34,209 nt of DNA, taken from IMG/VR virus record IMGVR_UViG_3300013099_000007, positions 1-34,209 of that record; one strand, written 5' to 3'. The notes beneath the pieces are model-generated. The model was not told where the DNA came from, did not search any database, and saw only the letters and a list, made by a program, of their open reading frames with translations. This DNA is from a virus. Position numbers and translations under genes: made by a program. Positions 4,230 through 17,023 of this stretch are shown in pieces (position 1 is the stretch's first letter; every line of letters begins with the position of its first letter).

Positions 4230-5559
4230 ATCCTTCCACCTTTATAGTTTCTTCTTCGTTAATTTCTTCTAACAATTTCTCTATTTCTTCTTGAGATTTA
4301 TTAGGATAAATTTCTCTCATAGCTAGCTCTTTGGTTATTAACCCTATAGCTAATAATTCCTTGTTACGATTAACTATATCCATTTGAGACTCAATAGGCT
4401 TTGGACTTGCAAAGGTAATAGAAGGCTCAAACGTATCTGTAAAACGTCTCCTGTCTTCTACTAACCCTGCGTCTGCCCAATAATTATGAAGGACTTTAAT
4501 TCTGTCCCATAGATCCTTCTCAACGCTAGTAAAATAAACTATTTGTTCTTTTCTATCGTCAGTAGTATCTATGTTTTTAATTTGAAGGGCAACTCCACTA
4601 GCGGAGGCCTCAGCACTCGCACTGTTGCCCTTTAAGTTTCTACTATTAAGAAACTTCTCTGTTGTCTGGTCTATAAGACCTAAGACTTGCTCTATATCAA
4701 CCTCTGGCTTAATCATACCTATCTCTGGTTTTTTACCATCATCACTTGTGTGGAGATCCCAGAAGGTATCAGGATTAAGTTCTAGATTTACAACATCTAA
4801 ATCAATTCCATAGATGATTGAATTGGTCTGGAATTGGATTGCATACATAAGGTTAGCTAATTTAACATTGATTATAATCCCAAACTGTAAAAGGTCTTTG
4901 TCTGGGTAAGGGGTTAAAAGATGTCTAGATTTATTAACATATGTTTGCGGTAATATACCATAAGGGTTTTCACCTTCATTCTCTTGCATATACTCAGACA
5001 AGATGTTGCCATTTCCATCCATAGCAACAAACTCTGTTGCAGTATAAACAAAGTATATATTTACATCGTTTTTTCTACCCATAAGTTTAACAAATATATC
5101 CATCTTAGTTGGATTAACAATATCTGTTGAGTATGGGATGAATTGGTGCGGTGGGATTACTCTTAGTCTCGGTTTACTATCATCAAGATAAGGCTCAATC
5201 GCTGTGCTTTTCATCGCATTATAGAACTTATTAGCGTCACTCATAGCACTATCAAAGCCCATCTCGGTAATATAGTAATCCATCAACTCTTGATCTGTTG
5301 AATTGTCAGTTGTTCTTACTACAGGAGTAGAATAAATCTTAGATAGTTTGCTAACCATCTGAGAAATAACATTAATAGGAGCTATCTGTTTCCTTGCTAT
5401 TTTATAAGCACGATCAGAGACATATGAATCTCTTAGAGCAACATCAACCTTGTTATATAGTTGCCCCTCTAAAATATCAAAAATGTTCTTATTGACTGTG
5501 GTAGATTCTTCATTCTGTTTAATTTGTTCTACTAACTCTGATACGTTAATTGTTGTCAT
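4180..5559 (-). CDS. Portal protein
   Basis: 459 aa, in the size range of SPP1-like portals. It follows the large terminase by 12 bases and has an AAGGGG site before ATG 5559. Seen features: an N-terminal helical part, 'PYLDDSKPRLRVIPPHQFIP' near residue 125 (wing beta-layer), 'ASASGVALQIKNI' near 315-328, a signature region of the crown/stem transition, then a long stem helix and 'KELAMREIYPNKSQEEI' close to a glutamate-rich C-terminus. Forms the dodecameric DNA channel at one capsid vertex and docks the terminase. High confidence from position plus these motifs. Confidence 0.9.
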   Translation of the reverse strand: MTTINVSELVEQIKQNEESTTVNKNIFDILEGQLYNKVDVALRDSYVSDRAYKIARKQIAPINVISQMVSKLSKIYSTPVVRTTDNSTDQELMDYYITEMGFDSAMSDANKFYNAMKSTAIEPYLDDSKPRLRVIPPHQFIPYSTDIVNPTKMDIFVKLMGRKNDVNIYFVYTATEFVAMDGNGNILSEYMQENEGENPYGILPQTYVNKSRHLLTPYPDKDLLQFGIIINVKLANLMYAIQFQTNSIIYGIDLDVVNLELNPDTFWDLHTSDDGKKPEIGMIKPEVDIEQVLGLIDQTTEKFLNSRNLKGNSASAEASASGVALQIKNIDTTDDRKEQIVYFTSVEKDLWDRIKVLHNYWADAGLVEDRRRFTDTFEPSITFASPKPIESQMDIVNRNKELLAIGLITKELAMREIYPNKSQEEIEKLLEEINEEETIKVEGFASETSENIIPDKLKV

Positions 5560-5571
5560 ATAACCCCTTCC

Positions 5572-6807
5572 CTAAAGTTGTATATTACTAGTTGCTCTCC
5601 GCTTTGGTCTAATTGGTAGCCAATACCATACTCCATATGTATAAGCGTCACTAGCATGAGACAGGTCAATTGTTTTTTCAACCTCCTTGCCGTCTTCTTT
5701 CCATGCTAATAACTCTAAGTCTTTTATTAATGTTTTGCAAGAGGGATCGATTACTAGCTTTTTATGATAAAGATTTGAATTAGCAGCGATTATTCTTTGA
5801 TAAACAGGAGGGTTTCTAACCTTTTGAGTTGACCCAAACCCTAACACCTCTTTAAATATTTCGTAGTTGGTCTTTGTAGCAGCAACATCCCTTTTGTTAT
5901 TACCTGCACTATCACCGCATACAATTACATGGCGGTCATTAGCATACTTTGCCTTGATCTGCTCTGCCATTTTACGAGTACCTTCATACTTTAAATGTTC
6001 CTCTCCAATCGCATATACCATACCATCCCTCTCAAACATATAAACACCACAGTAATTTGCGATGTTATAATCAGTGAAAAAGAATAGTTGATCTTTGTCA
6101 GTTAGCTTATCCCTGCAAGGAGCAACGTGTTTCTCTCTGCTAAACTCATTATAAACACACCCTACATTTAACTGTAATCGCTTGCCTAAAACCTCTTGTT
6201 CAAACAGTCTTGGAGAGTATGAACTTCTCAGGTCTTCTACATACTCGGTTGAAAGAGTTGGATTATCGTATGTTGTTGCTACTATCACCTTTCTAGTTTC
6301 GTTTTTATTTTTGAAAAAGTCTTCCCATATATGGTTATACCCTTTAGGTGATGACGTTACTCTCATTAATTCGGGAGCTATTCTAAGTCTCCCCTTTAAA
6401 GTACTCCATGCTTCCTCTTTATAATAGTCGGCCTCATCGGCATAGATAAAGGATGCATTAATTCCTCTAAAAGAACTATCGAAGTTATTAGCACCCCTAC
6501 AATAAATTTGAGTACCGTTAAAAAACTTTATATCGTTATTAGATTTATTCCAAATATAATGGACACCCTCTTGCATCTCTAACAGTTTTAACACCTTCTC
6601 GACTTCGGATAATGTTGCCATTTTTAATTGCGGAAAATCTCTTGCTACAATAAGGGCCTTAACATTTTTATACTTAAGTGCCATAAGGACTACCCAGAGG
6701 GCACCTACGAAACTTTTGCCTGCCCCTATCCCTGATTGTAGTAAAACGGATCTTTCTTTTGCCTGTAAAAACTCTATTTGTTTTGGAAACAATCTAATGT
6801 CTACCAT
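5572..6807 (-). CDS. terL: Terminase large subunit
   Basis: 411 aa DNA-packaging motor. ATPase domain: Walker A SGIGAGKS at 25-32, Walker B 'FIYADEAD' at 120-127 with catalytic Glu, coupling motif 'TSSPKG' at 151-156. RNase H-like nuclease domain: acidic residues in 'FFFTDYN' (D246), 'VIVCGDSAG' (D299) and 'SHASDAYTYG' (D387). All core residues are present. The ATG overlaps the small terminase stop (TAATG), so the two are co-translated. It translocates DNA through the portal and cuts the concatemer. Circular permutation of the assembly would suit headful packaging, but the cut mode cannot be read directly. Confidence 0.95.
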   Translation of the reverse strand: MVDIRLFPKQIEFLQAKERSVLLQSGIGAGKSFVGALWVVLMALKYKNVKALIVARDFPQLKMATLSEVEKVLKLLEMQEGVHYIWNKSNNDIKFFNGTQIYCRGANNFDSSFRGINASFIYADEADYYKEEAWSTLKGRLRIAPELMRVTSSPKGYNHIWEDFFKNKNETRKVIVATTYDNPTLSTEYVEDLRSSYSPRLFEQEVLGKRLQLNVGCVYNEFSREKHVAPCRDKLTDKDQLFFFTDYNIANYCGVYMFERDGMVYAIGEEHLKYEGTRKMAEQIKAKYANDRHVIVCGDSAGNNKRDVAATKTNYEIFKEVLGFGSTQKVRNPPVYQRIIAANSNLYHKKLVIDPSCKTLIKDLELLAWKEDGKEVEKTIDLSHASDAYTYGVWYWLPIRPKRRATSNIQL

Positions 6808-7163
6808 TAAATATCATCCCATCCTTTAATATTAATATTAATTGCAGCTATCTCTAGACGCTCCTCTCTACGATCAGTCCAACCAAAGCGATTCTTCATG
6901 TTAAATGTCCATGTTGCAGACGGCCCTTTAAATTTACCTATTACTTGTCCTTTGCCAAGATTCTCCCAATAAAGCTGCGATCTTAACCGACCTTTCTTGT
7001 AGGACTCAGAAAAAGTAGGCTTCTCACGCTTCCATTTATGTAGGGTTTCCTCTGTGACATCGATTATAGCACCAAAAGTAACAAAGGAATTACCCTTGGT
7101 CATATGCTTAACCAACATCTCACAAAACTCATCTTTCCATTTAGTCAATCTTCCTGACGGCAT
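6807..7163 (-). CDS. terS: Terminase small subunit
   Basis: 118 aa from ATG 7163. A second in-frame ATG at 7178 would add five residues, but the GGAGG lies between the two and is correctly spaced (8 nt) only for 7163. The N-terminal half is an HTH-like DNA-binding region ('FVTFGAIIDVTEETLHKWKR' at roughly residues 29-48), followed by a helix for oligomerisation, and the C-terminus 'INIKGWDDI' is the usual segment contacting the large subunit. It recognises viral DNA and regulates the motor. Located directly before terL with a coupled start/stop. Confidence 0.85.
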   Translation of the reverse strand: MPSGRLTKWKDEFCEMLVKHMTKGNSFVTFGAIIDVTEETLHKWKREKPTFSESYKKGRLRSQLYWENLGKGQVIGKFKGPSATWTFNMKNRFGWTDRREERLEIAAININIKGWDDI

Positions 7164-7213
7164 AATCATATCCTCCATGATTTATACTTACATAAAATTT
7201 AATTATTTTCAAT

Positions 7214-7486
7214 TTAAACCGTTAAATAAACTCTTCCTAATTCTATTTTAAAATATTTTTCTGTGGTTATAAATTCAGATTCAAATCCGGTTTCCTGTTT
7301 AGAATAAATTTCAATTTTACTAATTTCTACTATTAAAGCGATTTTCTCCTGATAATGCAATTTTAAATAAGTAGGGTTTTTAGAAAATAAATTTTTATAA
7401 TAATTAGAAAAAGATCTAAACTCAGTTATTTTTTCTCCGGATACTATTTGATCGAAAAATTTCTTTTTAATTCGTAGGGTAATCAT
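7214..7486 (-). CDS. ASCH-domain (PUA-like) protein
   Basis: 90 aa. ATG 7486 has AAGGA five bases upstream and overlaps the stop of the preceding gene (ATGA); a longer TTG-started form from 7513 lacks such a site. The sequence opens 'MITLRIKKKFFDQIVSGEKI' and continues 'TEFRSFSNYYKNLF', matching the ASCH pattern 'l.ik..y...I..GeK..E.R', and then beta strands 'ALIVEISKIEIYS'. Known ASCH members belong to the PUA-like superfamily, which binds RNA or modified bases; some are small amidohydrolases acting on N4-acetylcytidine. No function is proven here. Its position next to the putative modification pair and before terS is notable. Confidence 0.7.
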   Translation of the reverse strand: MITLRIKKKFFDQIVSGEKITEFRSFSNYYKNLFSKNPTYLKLHYQEKIALIVEISKIEIYSKQETGFESEFITTEKYFKIELGRVYLTV

Positions 7487-7698
7487 TTTATTCCTTCCAA
7501 TATTTCCTGCCAATTTATTTTAGAAACGTCTATATTATCATGATCATGTCCGAAAACTGCCGTATATAATTCCCAACAATCTTCGTCTGTTTTACAGGTC
7601 AAAAGAACTTTGTATAATTCTTCTGTGTTTGTTAAATGTAAATTAGCGTTCCAAGTTGACCAATTTGACCAACCGTTATACTTTTCTTCTCTTTTCAT
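7483..7698 (-). CDS. NGWxNWxTWN-motif small protein (DUF7249-like)
   Basis: 71 aa. The N-terminus 'YNGWSNWSTWNANLHLTNTE' carries the tryptophan-rich NGW.NW.TWN...L.L.N pattern typical of a widespread family of small phage and plasmid proteins, followed by helices ending 'INWQEILEGIK'. Family function is unknown to me. AAGGGG lies eight bases before ATG. It is the first gene after the candidate promoter and 22-bp repeats and is coupled to the ASCH gene. Confidence 0.75.
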   Translation of the reverse strand: MKREEKYNGWSNWSTWNANLHLTNTEELYKVLLTCKTDEDCWELYTAVFGHDHDNIDVSKINWQEILEGIK

Positions 7699-7818: not shown

Positions 7819-8952
7819 CTATCCAATCCATTTAAAACTAAACATTTTTACGTTTTTTCTGAACCCGCCCGAAGACTTACCCTTTCCTCTTCCCATAGTC
7901 TTTGATTTAGCCGCTATTTTCCCTGCTGAATCGCCAAAACGTCTTTCTGTTTTTAATTGTCTCCATAATAAAGATTTTTTTCTAGCTTTATACATAGGAA
8001 TAGAACTAAAAGTAGCTCTAATATCATATTTATATTTATCCTTTAAATGTTTAGCACACGAATTAGTCATTTTTAAGCCTAATCCTAATCCAGAATAATC
8101 AGGATGAATAACTACCCTATTTGAATGATATATTGGGATGTTACCTTTCCGAATTGGAACATAATTTGTAAATGCTTGAAATCCGATTTGATCGCCTTCT
8201 TCTGAAAACAATCCATATAAATAGTTTTTACCACCAGCTAACTTATCGCTTAGATAGTGATATTTACTAAAGTACTTCCATGTTTGTCTACTGACTTCTC
8301 TAATTGTAAATTTAAGTTGCTCTGATCGTTTGAAAGTTTGCCAAAGTGACCTCCGATCTAAATAGGTTTGTTTATTGCAATCAATTACCCAACAAGGGTT
8401 GAGCCATTCCATAACATCATAATGACAAGAACAGAGAATGATCTTTTTATTAAATTTACGTGCAAACTTTTGTAAACAGTGGCTCATTGCCTTTGCAACC
8501 GTTCTATCTACGACACTAGTCCACTCATCAATCAATACAACCTCTTGATCACTTGTCATTGCTAGGGCCGATAACGCTCTAAATTTTTGACCATTAGATA
8601 GTGTTTTTACTGGTCTAATCCAACAAGGAACAGACGTTAAACCTATTCCAGACAGTAAAGAGGCACACTCATCATAGGATAAATGTTTTGGGAACTGTTC
8701 AATAATAGGGAGATCCTCATCTATTTTGTTATAAAAACAGTTCTCTCCAAATATATGTTCTATTAGTGTAGTTTTCCCTGATCCGCTAGAACCAACTACT
8801 AGGCCTATTGTATAATCAGTATCCATATCAGCATTAATTTTGATATGATGGATAGATTTTTTCTCAGTATCGATGTCTAATGAGTTAGCAGCTTTTACGC
8901 ACCTAAATCCTGTTGATACGTCGCTTTTAAGGGTTAGCTCATAAGTTTGCAC
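7819..8952 (-). CDS. ABC ATPase fused to Mom-like GNAT acetyltransferase domain; candidate DNA-modification enzyme
   Basis: 377 aa. It starts at GTG 8952 with GAGAGG six bases upstream and overlaps the ParB-like gene by 19 bases. N-terminal ABC-type ATPase: Walker A GSSGSGKTT at 54-62, signature LSNGQ at 118-122, Walker B 'VVLIDEW' at 138-144, H-loop CHYD at 176-179, with no transmembrane segments, so not a transporter. C-terminal GNAT fold: 'SKYHYLSDKLAGG' at 229-241, the acyl-CoA-loop-like 'VVIHPDYSGLGLGLKM' at 280-295, and a basic tail ending 'FSFKWIG'. The YHYLS box plus GNAT and that tail are what I know from phage proteins related to Mu Mom, which modifies adenines. Role in DNA hypermodification is inference. 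Confidence 0.75.
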   Translation of the reverse strand: MQTYELTLKSDVSTGFRCVKAANSLDIDTEKKSIHHIKINADMDTDYTIGLVVGSSGSGKTTLIEHIFGENCFYNKIDEDLPIIEQFPKHLSYDECASLLSGIGLTSVPCWIRPVKTLSNGQKFRALSALAMTSDQEVVLIDEWTSVVDRTVAKAMSHCLQKFARKFNKKIILCSCHYDVMEWLNPCWVIDCNKQTYLDRRSLWQTFKRSEQLKFTIREVSRQTWKYFSKYHYLSDKLAGGKNYLYGLFSEEGDQIGFQAFTNYVPIRKGNIPIYHSNRVVIHPDYSGLGLGLKMTNSCAKHLKDKYKYDIRATFSSIPMYKARKKSLLWRQLKTERRFGDSAGKIAAKSKTMGRGKGKSSGGFRKNVKMFSFKWIG

Positions 8953-9530
8953 TCTAAACCTCTCTCTTTAAATTCATCGAATAGCTCAGCTTGTGCCACT
9001 TCATTTTTACAATCTATAACTACTAAAAATTCATTTATATCAATAATATTATCAATTTCTTCATTTGTGGGTAGTTTATCCTTAAAAAATTCATCTATAA
9101 ATTTGTCATTATCTATACCTTCTAACATAAATTCTTTTTTAAATTCATCTATTGGTATATCAACATCATTAAGGAATTCATATAATCCCTGTCCATCTAT
9201 TTTACCGTAACTTGATGTAATCGCTAATACTAACTCTTTAGCTTCCGATAAACTATCCGCAGGGATAACTACGCAGGGTATTTTAGGGATTACATACCCT
9301 TCTTTTTCTAAGACCAATAAGACTAATCGTCTAGTATGACCATCTAAAATATATACCTTTTGTTCATTTTCTTCCCATACATAAATAGGAATTTTAAAGT
9401 TACGCTTGAGAATAGTTTTTTTAATCGCCTCAAAAGCTGTTTTACTGACTTCTTTTAAATTGCCTTGGATTGGCAATAGATCCTTATAGTCATAGTATTT
9501 AATTTGTAACGATTCTACTTTTAATTCCAT
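8934..9530 (-). CDS. ParB-like N-terminal domain protein
   Basis: 198 aa. Residues about 1-110 form a ParB/sulfiredoxin-type domain: 'KYYDYKDLLPIQGNL' at the start, 'FKIPIYVWEENEQKVYILDG' and then HTRR (box II-like DGHTRR at 63-68), then 'IPCVVIP'. No HTH domain of partition ParB follows. Instead there is an acidic helical part and a short C-terminal alpha/beta unit 'FLVVIDCKNEVAQAELFDEF'. In other phages such domains are found alone or fused to DNA methyltransferases and other modification enzymes. Overlap with the ABC-GNAT gene indicates joint function. Plasmid partition is unlikely because no ParA is present. Confidence 0.75.
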   Translation of the reverse strand: MELKVESLQIKYYDYKDLLPIQGNLKEVSKTAFEAIKKTILKRNFKIPIYVWEENEQKVYILDGHTRRLVLLVLEKEGYVIPKIPCVVIPADSLSEAKELVLAITSSYGKIDGQGLYEFLNDVDIPIDEFKKEFMLEGIDNDKFIDEFFKDKLPTNEEIDNIIDINEFLVVIDCKNEVAQAELFDEFKERGLECKLMS

Positions 9531-15058: not shown

Positions 15059-15364
15059 ATGGAACTTAACTTGCGTCTGTTTACTAAAACAGATTACTAT
15101 AAAATTCACGTGGAAAATAATCCAACCAAAATTCGTTATTATGAGAGACAATGGGATAAATATATTAAAGGGTATTTTAATAAGAATCCTTTTAACAGAT
15201 TCTCTCACGATCCTTTTATAGTCAAACTGCAAAAACGTAAATGTAAGCACGCTCAATACTTAATTAATAGTTCCGATGAATGGGTTCCAACTAAATATCC
15301 GTTGTCGGAAAAACAAATGGAGGGCATGGCAGAATGGAAAAAGAATCAGAAAAATTTAACTTAG
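15059..15364 (+). CDS. First gene of the rightward unit, hypothetical basic protein
   Basis: 101 aa, basic and aromatic-rich: 'MELNLRLFTKTDYYKIHVEN', then 'NPTKIRYYERQWDKYIKGYF' and 'PFIVKLQKRKCKHAQYL', with a helical C-terminus 'EKQMEGMAEWKKNQKNLT'. No ribosome binding site is visible upstream of ATG, which may mean a short-leader or leaderless mRNA. It overlaps the ERF gene by 31 bases. Placement before recombination genes suggests a DNA-metabolism or regulatory role. No family recognised. Confidence 0.55.
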   Translation: MELNLRLFTKTDYYKIHVENNPTKIRYYERQWDKYIKGYFNKNPFNRFSHDPFIVKLQKRKCKHAQYLINSSDEWVPTKYPLSEKQMEGMAEWKKNQKNLT

Positions 15365-15954
15365 ATCAGCGAATGTTAAACATTTCAAGTGGGAGTGCAA
15401 AGATACCTAAAAGAGGTAGGAACAACTTCTCTAAGTACAACTATGTATTAGCAGTAGACGTTATAAATGAAGTCAGTAGGCTATTAGTGAAAGAGGGAGT
15501 ATGCCTAAACATTTCACAGCTAGGAGTTAAAAGAGAGCAAGTAGGCAAGAATTGGCACTGTGTAGTCGAGTGTCTAGCCACGTTTTCTAATGTTGATAAT
15601 CCAAAAGAACAAAAGAAAGTTAATTTTTTCGGTATAGCTGCCGACACCCTAGATAAAGATTTATATAAAGCACTTACTAACGGATTAAAATATCTATTTA
15701 CTCAACAGTTTTTAATCGTAACAGACGATGTAATAGACGTTGAGCAAGATAATAAAGCAGAAAAGAACCAGTCTAAGCCAGTATCTATTAATGAATACAT
15801 GATTCCATTTGGGAGACATAGAGGTAAATCATTTAAAGATTGTTCTAAAGAAGATCTAATAAATGATGCTAAGTTTTTAACAAATAACGGAGAGCCAAAA
15901 GGTCAAGCCAAGGAGTTTTGCGACAACCTAAGGAAATATTTAGTACAGAAATAA
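15334..15954 (+). CDS. ERF-family single-strand annealing protein with DUF3820-like C-terminus
   Basis: 206 aa. GGAGGG lies about nine bases before ATG 15334, inside the preceding gene. ERF core about residues 30-135: 'NFSKYNYVLAVDVINEVSRL' then 'LVKEGVCLNIS', a beta-rich centre, and 'FFGIAADTLDKDLYKALTNG' plus 'LKYLFTQQFLIVTDD', the hallmark C-terminal helix. Residues about 157-200 ('IPFGRHRGKSFKDCSKEDLI') match the small 'PFG..kGk...d.....yL' module seen fused to exonucleases. The protein anneals complementary ssDNA in phage recombination, working with SSB and the nuclease encoded downstream. Confidence 0.85.
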   Translation: MEKESEKFNLDQRMLNISSGSAKIPKRGRNNFSKYNYVLAVDVINEVSRLLVKEGVCLNISQLGVKREQVGKNWHCVVECLATFSNVDNPKEQKKVNFFGIAADTLDKDLYKALTNGLKYLFTQQFLIVTDDVIDVEQDNKAEKNQSKPVSINEYMIPFGRHRGKSFKDCSKEDLINDAKFLTNNGEPKGQAKEFCDNLRKYLVQK

Positions 15955-15975
15955 TTATAAACATTGGAGGTAAAA

Positions 15976-16392
15976 ATGAGTTCAGTAAATTCAGTATCAC
16001 TACTTGGTAGGTTAGGGAAAGATCCCGAGTTGACATATATCGCTAGCGGTACAGCTTGTTGTAAGTTTAGTCTTGCAACAACTAAATTGATGAAAGACAA
16101 GGAAGGCAATAGAACGTCTGTTCCAGTATGGCATCAAATAGTTGTGTGGGGGAGACAAGCCGAGTCGTGTGATAAATATTTATCCAAAGGTAGTACTGCA
16201 TATATTGATGGTGAGATTGAATATCAAGAATGGGATGGCAATGATGGGACTAGAAAATATAGAACAGTTATAAATGGTAGAAACGTACAATTTATAGGCG
16301 GAGCAAAAGTAAAACAAGAGGAAGCGGAAGGGACACTCAAACAACCTCAACAAGAGGATAAAAGTTATTCTGTTGCAGATATACCGTTTTAA
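15976..16392 (+). CDS. ssb: Single-stranded DNA-binding protein
   Basis: 138 aa from ATG 15976 (GGAGG with a 5-base spacer; an in-frame TTG at 15964 is not needed). OB-fold features: 'VSLLGRLGKDPELTYIASGT', 'VWHQIVVWGRQAESCDKYLS', 'KGSTAYIDGEIEYQEWDGND' and 'YRTVINGRNVQFIGG'. The acidic linker ends with the SSB tip 'SVADIPF', through which SSBs contact DNA-repair partners. It protects ssDNA during phage replication and recombination; near-complete conservation of the family pattern gives high confidence. Confidence 0.95.
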   Translation: MSSVNSVSLLGRLGKDPELTYIASGTACCKFSLATTKLMKDKEGNRTSVPVWHQIVVWGRQAESCDKYLSKGSTAYIDGEIEYQEWDGNDGTRKYRTVINGRNVQFIGGAKVKQEEAEGTLKQPQQEDKSYSVADIPF

Positions 16393-16440
16393 TAATAACA
16401 ATAAACATGACCATTGGAGAGGTCTAATTAGGAGATGAAA

Positions 16441-16662
16441 ATGACTTCAAATTTAGAATTGATAGTTGATAAATTAGACGAAACAACGCAGCGGTTAGAG
16501 TACACAAAAGAATGGAATGAAGACCTCCAAAGAGAGGTTGATCGATTGTTTGATATTGCAACCGAGTTGAGTAAAGACAACGAGTTACTAAAGGCTTGCT
16601 TAAGACATCCAGAAGTGGAACAATTGATCCATGCTAAAGCTAACCGAGGAACAAATAAATGA
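16441..16662 (+). CDS. Short coiled-coil protein
   Basis: 73 aa from ATG 16441 (GGAG six bases upstream; ATG 16435 is too close to it). 'MTSNLELIVDKLDETTQRLE' and 'YTKEWNEDLQREVDRLFDIA' form a long coiled coil, followed by a basic end 'HAKANRGTNK'. Located between SSB and the nuclease gene, whose start lies inside it. Function unknown; possibly a structural or regulatory partner of the recombination proteins. Confidence 0.6.
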   Translation: MTSNLELIVDKLDETTQRLEYTKEWNEDLQREVDRLFDIATELSKDNELLKACLRHPEVEQLIHAKANRGTNK

Positions 16663-17023
16663 AGCGATTTGTAGCTATCTTAATTATAAAGCGGATGGAT
16701 ACGCTATTAGGATAGCTCCCTCGGGGTTCTTTAAAGACGGTAGGATGCGGAAGCACCGATCTAAATACATAATCAAAGGGGTCTCTGATATATTATATTG
16801 GAGCAAAGGTTTCTTCTTTGCGTTCGAGGTAAAGACCCCCACAGCTCACAAATACATTAAAAAACATGGCGAACGATTAAGAGGATTATCCCCTGTGAAA
16901 TTAAACAAGGGCCAGATCCATATCGTAGAACAAATTAGATTCTTAGAGGCAATTAGGCAGCAAGGGTTTGTTGCAGAATTTGTATCATCAATTGAGGATG
17001 TTAAAACTATATTGGAGTGTTAA
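16631..17023 (+). CDS. VRR-NUC-like nuclease
   Basis: 130 aa, PD-(D/E)xK-type fold: 'GVSDILYWSKGFFFAFEVKT' holds the GvsD and ExK catalytic elements (D near residue 53, E-V-K near 67-69), with 'KLNKGQIHIVEQIRFLEAIR' (the Q-helix) and 'GFVAEFVSSIEDV' as the closing strands. This is the order of VRR-NUC phage nucleases. It could resolve branched DNA or process recombination intermediates. ATG 16631 overlaps the preceding gene by 32 bases and no strong ribosome binding site precedes it. The stop overlaps the next ATG (TAATG). Confidence 0.8.
   Translation: MLKLTEEQINEAICSYLNYKADGYAIRIAPSGFFKDGRMRKHRSKYIIKGVSDILYWSKGFFFAFEVKTPTAHKYIKKHGERLRGLSPVKLNKGQIHIVEQIRFLEAIRQQGFVAEFVSSIEDVKTILEC

Follow-up and report, generated by a model that had tools for sequence, protein, structure and literature searches.

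The window analysed here comprises the 34,209 bases of IMG/VR virus record IMGVR_UViG_3300013099_000007. Its minus strand carries a pair of overlapping genes, one encoding a ParB/sulfiredoxin-fold protein and the other a fusion of an ABC ATPase with a GNAT domain (hereafter ABC-GNAT). The pair sits just upstream of the terminase genes and is followed on its 3' side, in this order, by small ORFs (one of them ASCH-like), the small and the large subunit of the terminase and the portal gene (Table 1). The initial annotation of the window had reported two genes overlapping by 19 bases, and indeed both ORFs were recovered on the minus strand where it had placed them, with positions 8934-8952 common to the two frames. 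A short plus-strand cluster at 15059-17023, in a genome otherwise encoded on the minus strand, contains genes for a recombination protein of the ERF family (15334-15954) and for an SSB (15964-16392). An N6/N4 methyltransferase elsewhere in the record was also considered as the modifier, and none was found with PF01555.

Table 1. Features of the ParB/ABC-GNAT locus and its surroundings in the window.
Feature	Position	Strand	Remarks
ABC-ATPase/GNAT fusion gene	7819..8952	-	377 aa, GTG start; ORF; PHROG 11143 member
ABC nucleotide-binding domain, residues 1-203	8344..8952	-	motifs, invariance, VIA-align
GNAT domain, residues 213-377	7822..8316	-	YHYLS motif, acyl-CoA loop (Y)SGLGLG, VIA-align
ParB/sulfiredoxin-fold partner gene	8934..9530	-	198 aa, ATG start; PHROG matches, model, adjacency in relatives
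ParB N-domain body, residues 7-108	9207..9512	-	VIA-align to 7ng0; body common to Mom-partner ParBs
C-terminal tail element, residues 168-198 (FLVVIDCKNEVAQAELFDEFKERGLECKLMS)	8937..9029	-	tail HMM; specific to ABC-GNAT partners
Overlap of the two reading frames	8934..8952	-	19 bases
Putative ASCH-like small protein, downstream of the pair	7214..7513	-	PF04266 E 0.001, below cut-off
Terminase small subunit (context, outside the unit)	6807..7178	-	phrog_309 E 1.4e-12
Terminase large subunit (context, recurrent downstream neighbour)	5572..6807	-	phrog_2 E 4e-47

The ABC-GNAT fusion protein

All motifs that had been quoted for the fusion are present in it, namely GSSGSGKTT at residue 54 (Walker A, 54-62), LSNGQ at 118 (signature, 118-122), VVLIDE at 138 (Walker B, 138-143), CHYD at 176 (with H177 of the H-loop), YHYLS at 231 and VVIHPDYSGLGLGLKM at 280. 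These motifs are not chance occurrences, because the catalytic residues are invariant across 112 aligned relatives: in the ABC half these comprise G/K of Walker A, S119/G121, D142/E143, S146/D149 of the D-loop and H177, and in the GNAT half Y233, R279, P284 and G288, with G290/G292 of the GLGLG loop nearly invariant in the alignment. The protein matches PHROG 11143, a family with no assigned function, over residues 6-366 (E 2e-80), and its AlphaFold model, built from 112 window and locus sequences, has a mean pLDDT of 91.9. Structural comparison with VIA-align matched residues 1-203 to the ABC nucleotide-binding domains of MalK and MJ0796 (Z ~14-14.5) and residues 213-377 to GNATs (1y9k, Z 14.9; RimI 5isv, Z 14.2; Naa10, Z 14.3). 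Motifs, structure prediction and VIA-align thus agree on an ABC ATPase fused to a GNAT, as the initial annotation had read it.

At least 598 relatives possess the ABC+GNAT architecture; the family is spread over phages of many bacterial phyla, and relatives also occur in contigs of bacterial genomes across many phyla. Phages of Oenococcus, Lactococcus and Streptococcus encode the two halves as separate neighbouring genes, and in 12 non-redundant loci a separate GNAT gene lies directly 3' of the ABC gene. Since the halves occur either fused or as neighbours, the two domains appear to co-operate whether fused or separate. In Enterococcus phage 9184 (L019), the gene directly after an ABC gene of this type (4525-5355) is annotated as a DNA polymerase; BFVD entry A0A7L8ZJV7, which bears this name and stems from the same phage, matches the window fusion, so that this 'DNA polymerase' may be a misannotated GNAT half.

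The C-terminal half had also been likened to the Mom class. Structural comparison and the acyl-CoA loop uphold its place in the GNAT superfamily; its placement in the Mom family is not supported. The Mom profile PF25680 gave no match with the fusion at E<=1 and none anywhere in the window record; as a positive control, the same search gave matches in phages that carry Mom, with strong ones for Mom from Mu and from phages of Porphyromonas, Arthrobacter and Microbacterium. Local hhalign comparison of the GNAT half with 45 Mom sequences reached a probability of 6% in a 51-column match around the HY motif, and hhalign comparison with the ordinary GNAT SpeG (a single sequence) reached 65%. Structurally, the half is nearest to GNATs of the RimI/Naa10 type; the solved Mom structure 8bv8 is absent among the VIA-align matches listed, which says nothing either way. 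Kinship of the GNAT half with Mom is therefore unsupported by Pfam and hhalign, and the 'Mom class' label is not upheld: the C-terminal half reads and folds, in the model, as a canonical GNAT with an acyl-CoA loop, and no Mom profile matches it.

The ParB-like partner and its tail

The AlphaFold model of the ParB-like protein (mean pLDDT 85.1) aligns at residues 7-108 with the N-domain of Noc/Spo0J (7ng0; Z 13.3, rmsd 2.0 over 95 residues in VIA-align), and sulfiredoxins are similar. Its best PHROG match is to phrog_498, a family named DNA methyltransferase, of which the N-terminal part is matched (E 1.1e-13), and a further match is to phrog_1033 (3e-10). Pfam PF02195 (ParB) does not match the protein, which has GHxR in place of the GERR-type motif of ParB. 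The initial annotation had described this protein as a ParB/sulfiredoxin-type partner without a partition HTH or ParA. The fold agrees with this, and PF13614 gave no ParA match in the window record, with matches in 14/14 control genomes. No HTH was recognised by Pfam, and the helices after residue 112 align with Noc only at 4.4 A.

The partnership is widely conserved. Among the relatives sampled, which were the best-scoring among the matches listed, ABC-GNAT was preceded by a ParB homologue in 70/83 IMG/VR loci, 61/76 bacterial genome loci and 11/18 annotated phages that had enough upstream sequence (two of these matches consist of the tail element alone, see below). Across 154 non-redundant loci, the ParB gene occupies position -1 in 104/147, -2 in 8/131 and +1 in 1/150. 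The frames overlap in 101/136 ParB-bearing loci, the commonest lengths being 22 bases (45 loci), 19 bases (19 loci, as in the window), 4 and 16 bases. In 69 non-redundant loci, homologues of the terminase large subunit lie close to the pair.

The ParBs that accompany ABC-GNAT share a conserved C-terminal element of 30-40 residues, here called the tail, which the tail HMM detected in 138/139 adjacent partners. Furthermore, the tail is encoded as a separate small gene directly before ABC-GNAT in 12 loci that have no ParB (L011, L015, L137, L142, L148, L155, L158, L167, L175, L177, L183 and L187); these genes mostly encode 49-65 residues and overlap by ~4 bases. In Porphyromonas phages 006a and 008a the tail is annotated as a 42-residue gene, labelled 'acr candidate' in 008a. 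Because it is present in nearly all partners and also stands alone where ParB is missing, it is the tail, rather than the ParB domain, that accompanies ABC-GNAT most constantly, as far as the compared sequences indicate. Such a partner is not present everywhere: in the T4-like and marine phages that make up one supported clade of 16 rows, ABC-GNAT has neither ParB nor tail. The T4-like Aeromonas phage AsFcp_2 (L013), with no ParB or tail beside its ABC-GNAT, carries a Mom gene as well; possession of both argues that the two enzymes are not simply interchangeable.

Neighbouring genes

A Formyl_trans_N protein is encoded beside ABC-GNAT in 14 loci (L011, 5122-5595; L015, 5071-5688; L016, L148, L152, L155, L158, L172, L175, L176, L177, L180, L181 and L183). 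The 13 of these that are in the tree all fall into one fully supported clade of 17 rows, which also contains all ten rows with a stand-alone tail. The associated protein has the motif GYHPSLLP; classical formyltransferases have Asn before the His, where this motif reads otherwise. Its presence suggests that the product in this clade carries a formyl group or is made by way of a formylated intermediate.

ASCH or ASCH-like genes are repeated neighbours of the pair, in some loci on the other strand (L018, 5117-5485; L054, 6074-6457; L113, 6073-6369). ASCH is a predicted fold for reading modified bases, and such proteins could be readers of the modified base. The small protein of the window scores 20.2 bits against a PF04266 cut-off of 21.2, and analogy with these loci makes it a possible, if weak, member of the unit.

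Shared ParB body and natural exchange with mom

A second group of ParB partners connects the pair with Mom. Relatives of the Mom gene of Microbacterium phage Appa (Appa-type) have a ParB homologue directly upstream in all 77/77 loci with room for it (33/33 when non-redundant). These Mom-partner ParBs match the same body HMM as the partners of ABC-GNAT and end in a CxxC knuckle in 32/33 non-redundant cases, a feature absent from 136 ABC-GNAT-partner ParBs; conversely, the tail HMM had no match in any Mom locus. No such ParB accompanies Mu-type Mom genes (0/10 non-redundant). The ParB partner is thus modular at the level of its HMM matches, with a shared body and a C-terminus that switches with the enzyme. 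The ParB partners of Appa-type Mom (L224, L225, L306-L385) are annotated as partition proteins or nucleases.

Genome comparison within two phage groups indicates that one and the same genomic slot can hold either ABC-GNAT or Mom, each in place of the other. In ten Porphyromonas Mu-like phages the last phage-tail gene is common to all (80-100% identity), and the flanking DNA is shared up to the end of this gene and again in the last ~90 bases. The right-end slot, the end at which Mu itself carries com-mom, holds tail peptide, ABC-GNAT and formyltransferase in 006a and 008a and a PF25680 mom gene in 012a, 013a and 015a, and in 010a (L395) it is empty of either enzyme with flanks 94-95% identical to those of 008a. 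ABC-GNAT matches were also found in 007a, 009a and 011a, and none of the Porphyromonas-group records checked has both enzymes together. In similarity to 008a the two types are interleaved (91.6% for 013a, a carrier of Mom, and 91.1% for 007a, a carrier of ABC-GNAT), a pattern suggestive of repeated exchange of mom and ABC-GNAT among these phages. Similarly, Arthrobacter phage EastWest carries a ParB with tail and ABC-GNAT where Wyborn and StevieBAY, with the same neighbours and syntenic flanks, carry a ParB with CxxC and Mom. The ParB body of EastWest is 62% identical to that of Wyborn over 118 residues and 53% to that of StevieBAY over 133, with no alignment beyond. As a slot may hold functionally unrelated accessory genes, such replacement supports rather than proves a shared function.

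Proposed function and alternative explanations

The initial annotation had proposed that the pair modifies viral DNA, and we consider this probable on the strength of the replacement of mom by the cassette and of the ParB-Mom gene pairs. Since relatives replace mom at the same genome site, the pair probably decorates the phage's own DNA against restriction enzymes: the two proteins would form one hypermodification complex that acylates a base, and the packaged genome would resist host restriction. In such a complex, the tail would dock the ABC-GNAT enzyme, and the ParB body would recruit or load it on DNA. ATP-driven dimerisation of the ABC domain would then clamp or distort the DNA and expose a base (by analogy with Rad50/SMC-type ATPases), to whose amine the GNAT domain would move an acyl group from CoA. 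Acylation would precede packaging, so that it is the modified genome that is packaged and withstands host restriction.

Several observations argue for modification of DNA. In addition to the replacement of mom by the cassette in Porphyromonas and Arthrobacter phages, ParB has a different C-terminal element according to the enzyme, the ParB of the window is nearest to the N-terminal region of phrog_498, and the catalytic residues of both the ABC and the GNAT half are invariant in the 112 relatives. The pair also lies just before the terminase in many phages, with ASCH-type genes recurrent beside it. Finally, acyl base modification by a GNAT with an ABC ATPase has been predicted in print (in a passage of PMC7824862), and DpdB offers a precedent (PMC12839542). 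Against this count the closer resemblance of the GNAT domain to ordinary protein and small-molecule acetyltransferases than to Mom, the clade of T4-like and marine phages that is devoid of ParB and tail, and the presence of both enzymes in AsFcp_2.

In one alternative explanation, ABC-GNAT would serve host takeover by acylating a protein, be it host RNA polymerase, a ribosomal protein or a packaging protein of the phage, with ABC and ParB positioning it on nucleoprotein. In its favour, RimI, Naa10 and other ordinary GNATs are the nearest structural matches of the GNAT half, phiKMV-like phages have GNATs such as Rac that modify RNA polymerase (PMC7824862), and the best NCBIfam match of the ABC half, far below threshold, is a ribosome-protection ABC-F model. 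Nevertheless, we regard protein acylation as unlikely, since it leaves unexplained both the replacement of mom in two groups and the ParB body common to Mom partners. The mom replacement is equally unaccounted for if the pair is an accessory of DNA segregation, condensation or packaging of the Noc/SMC kind, acting before the terminase and regulated by the GNAT. Although the Noc- and Spo0J-like fold of the ParB N-domain and the terminase neighbours would fit, there is no ParA family match in the record, the GNAT residues are invariant, and in Mu-like phages the pair also occurs at the right end, apart from the terminase, which renders this role quite improbable.

The annotation of many relatives as ATPases of siderophore or hemin transporters would fit an ordinary transporter ATPase, or an unrelated fusion, that a phage acquired without any function as a unit. 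This is hardly credible, and the neighbourhood data speak strongly against it: ParB, not a permease, is the conserved neighbour (104/147 non-redundant loci), a GNAT is fused or adjacent in distant phages, and both active sites are strongly conserved. DNA modification might also serve regulation or the marking of self and non-self rather than anti-restriction, as the relatives in bacterial genome contigs of many phyla and the ASCH-type candidate readers beside the pair could suggest. We consider this very improbable, because terminase and portal are among the most frequent recognisable families near the planctomycete loci scanned, many of which therefore look like prophages, and no nuclease family recurs there. 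A cellular restriction-modification system of Planctomycetes with a nuclease neighbour was rejected, no recurrent nuclease family having been found among the scanned neighbours, as was a known anti-phage defence system, for which PADLOC gave generic ABC matches only (e.g. mad3 over 68 residues).

A more far-reaching version of DNA base acylation is put forward tentatively, as possible rather than probable. The ParB/Srx body would be a general, swappable DNA-targeting subunit whose C-terminus acts as a docking code for the enzyme (tail for ABC-GNAT, CxxC for Mom), and ABC-GNAT would be an ATP-driven DNA base acyltransferase whose base is distinct from that of Mom and whose product, in one clade, is further tailored by a dedicated formyltransferase.

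Comparison with known systems

A fusion of an ABC ATPase with an acetyltransferase is known from archaea (COG2401). In phages, a GNAT coupled with an ABC ATPase was earlier predicted by Iyer and colleagues (2013) to make an uncharacterised acyl DNA-base modification, according to a passage of a jumbo-phage paper (PMC7824862, 2021), which cites QAX98348.1 as an example protein. This protein is the ABC-GNAT of Aeromonas phage AsFcp_2 and aligns with the window fusion at 29% identity. The novelty that the initial annotation had implied for the fusion does not, therefore, extend to its architecture, which is common, equals PHROG 11143 and had its role in DNA-base acylation predicted in that passage. 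What is new here is the tail of the partner, the way it is exchanged together with the enzyme, and the natural swaps with mom, on none of which a report was found in the literature searched; the same search, which was incomplete, found no tested function for the ABC-GNAT family. The mom swaps and the enzyme-linked tail make a vague prediction directly testable in collection phages (EastWest versus Wyborn and StevieBAY; Lactococcus P335). If true, the proposal implies that a new DNA nucleoside, a DNA acyltransferase dependent on ATP and a modular targeting subunit common to unrelated enzymes of DNA modification are there to be found, and the ParB-like 'partition' and 'siderophore transporter' annotations of many phages would need correcting.

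With the GNAT+ABC-ATPase family (PHROG 11143) the window fusion shares domain order and full-length homology; unlike the jumbo-phage examples examined, it has a ParB/tail partner. DpdB of the 7-deazaguanine Dpd system, a ParB-like ATPase described as driving preQ0 insertion into DNA (PMC12839542), resembles the ParB-like protein, as far as that description goes, in being paired with a predicted DNA base-modifying enzyme, but its partner is a transglycosylase. Residues 7-108 of the window ParB share the fold of the N-terminal domain of ParB/Noc/Spo0J and of sulfiredoxin, whereas the protein differs from ParB/Noc/Spo0J in having no ParA match in its record, no recognised HTH and an enzyme-specific tail. 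With Mom (PF25680), ABC-GNAT has in common membership of the GNAT superfamily, a similarly placed histidine-tyrosine motif, the same genomic slot in two phage groups and the possibility of being preceded by a ParB-body protein. It differs from Mom in showing neither a Mom profile match nor convincing profile-profile similarity, in its canonical G-x-G acyl-CoA loop and added ABC ATPase, and in the different C-terminal element that its ParB partner carries.
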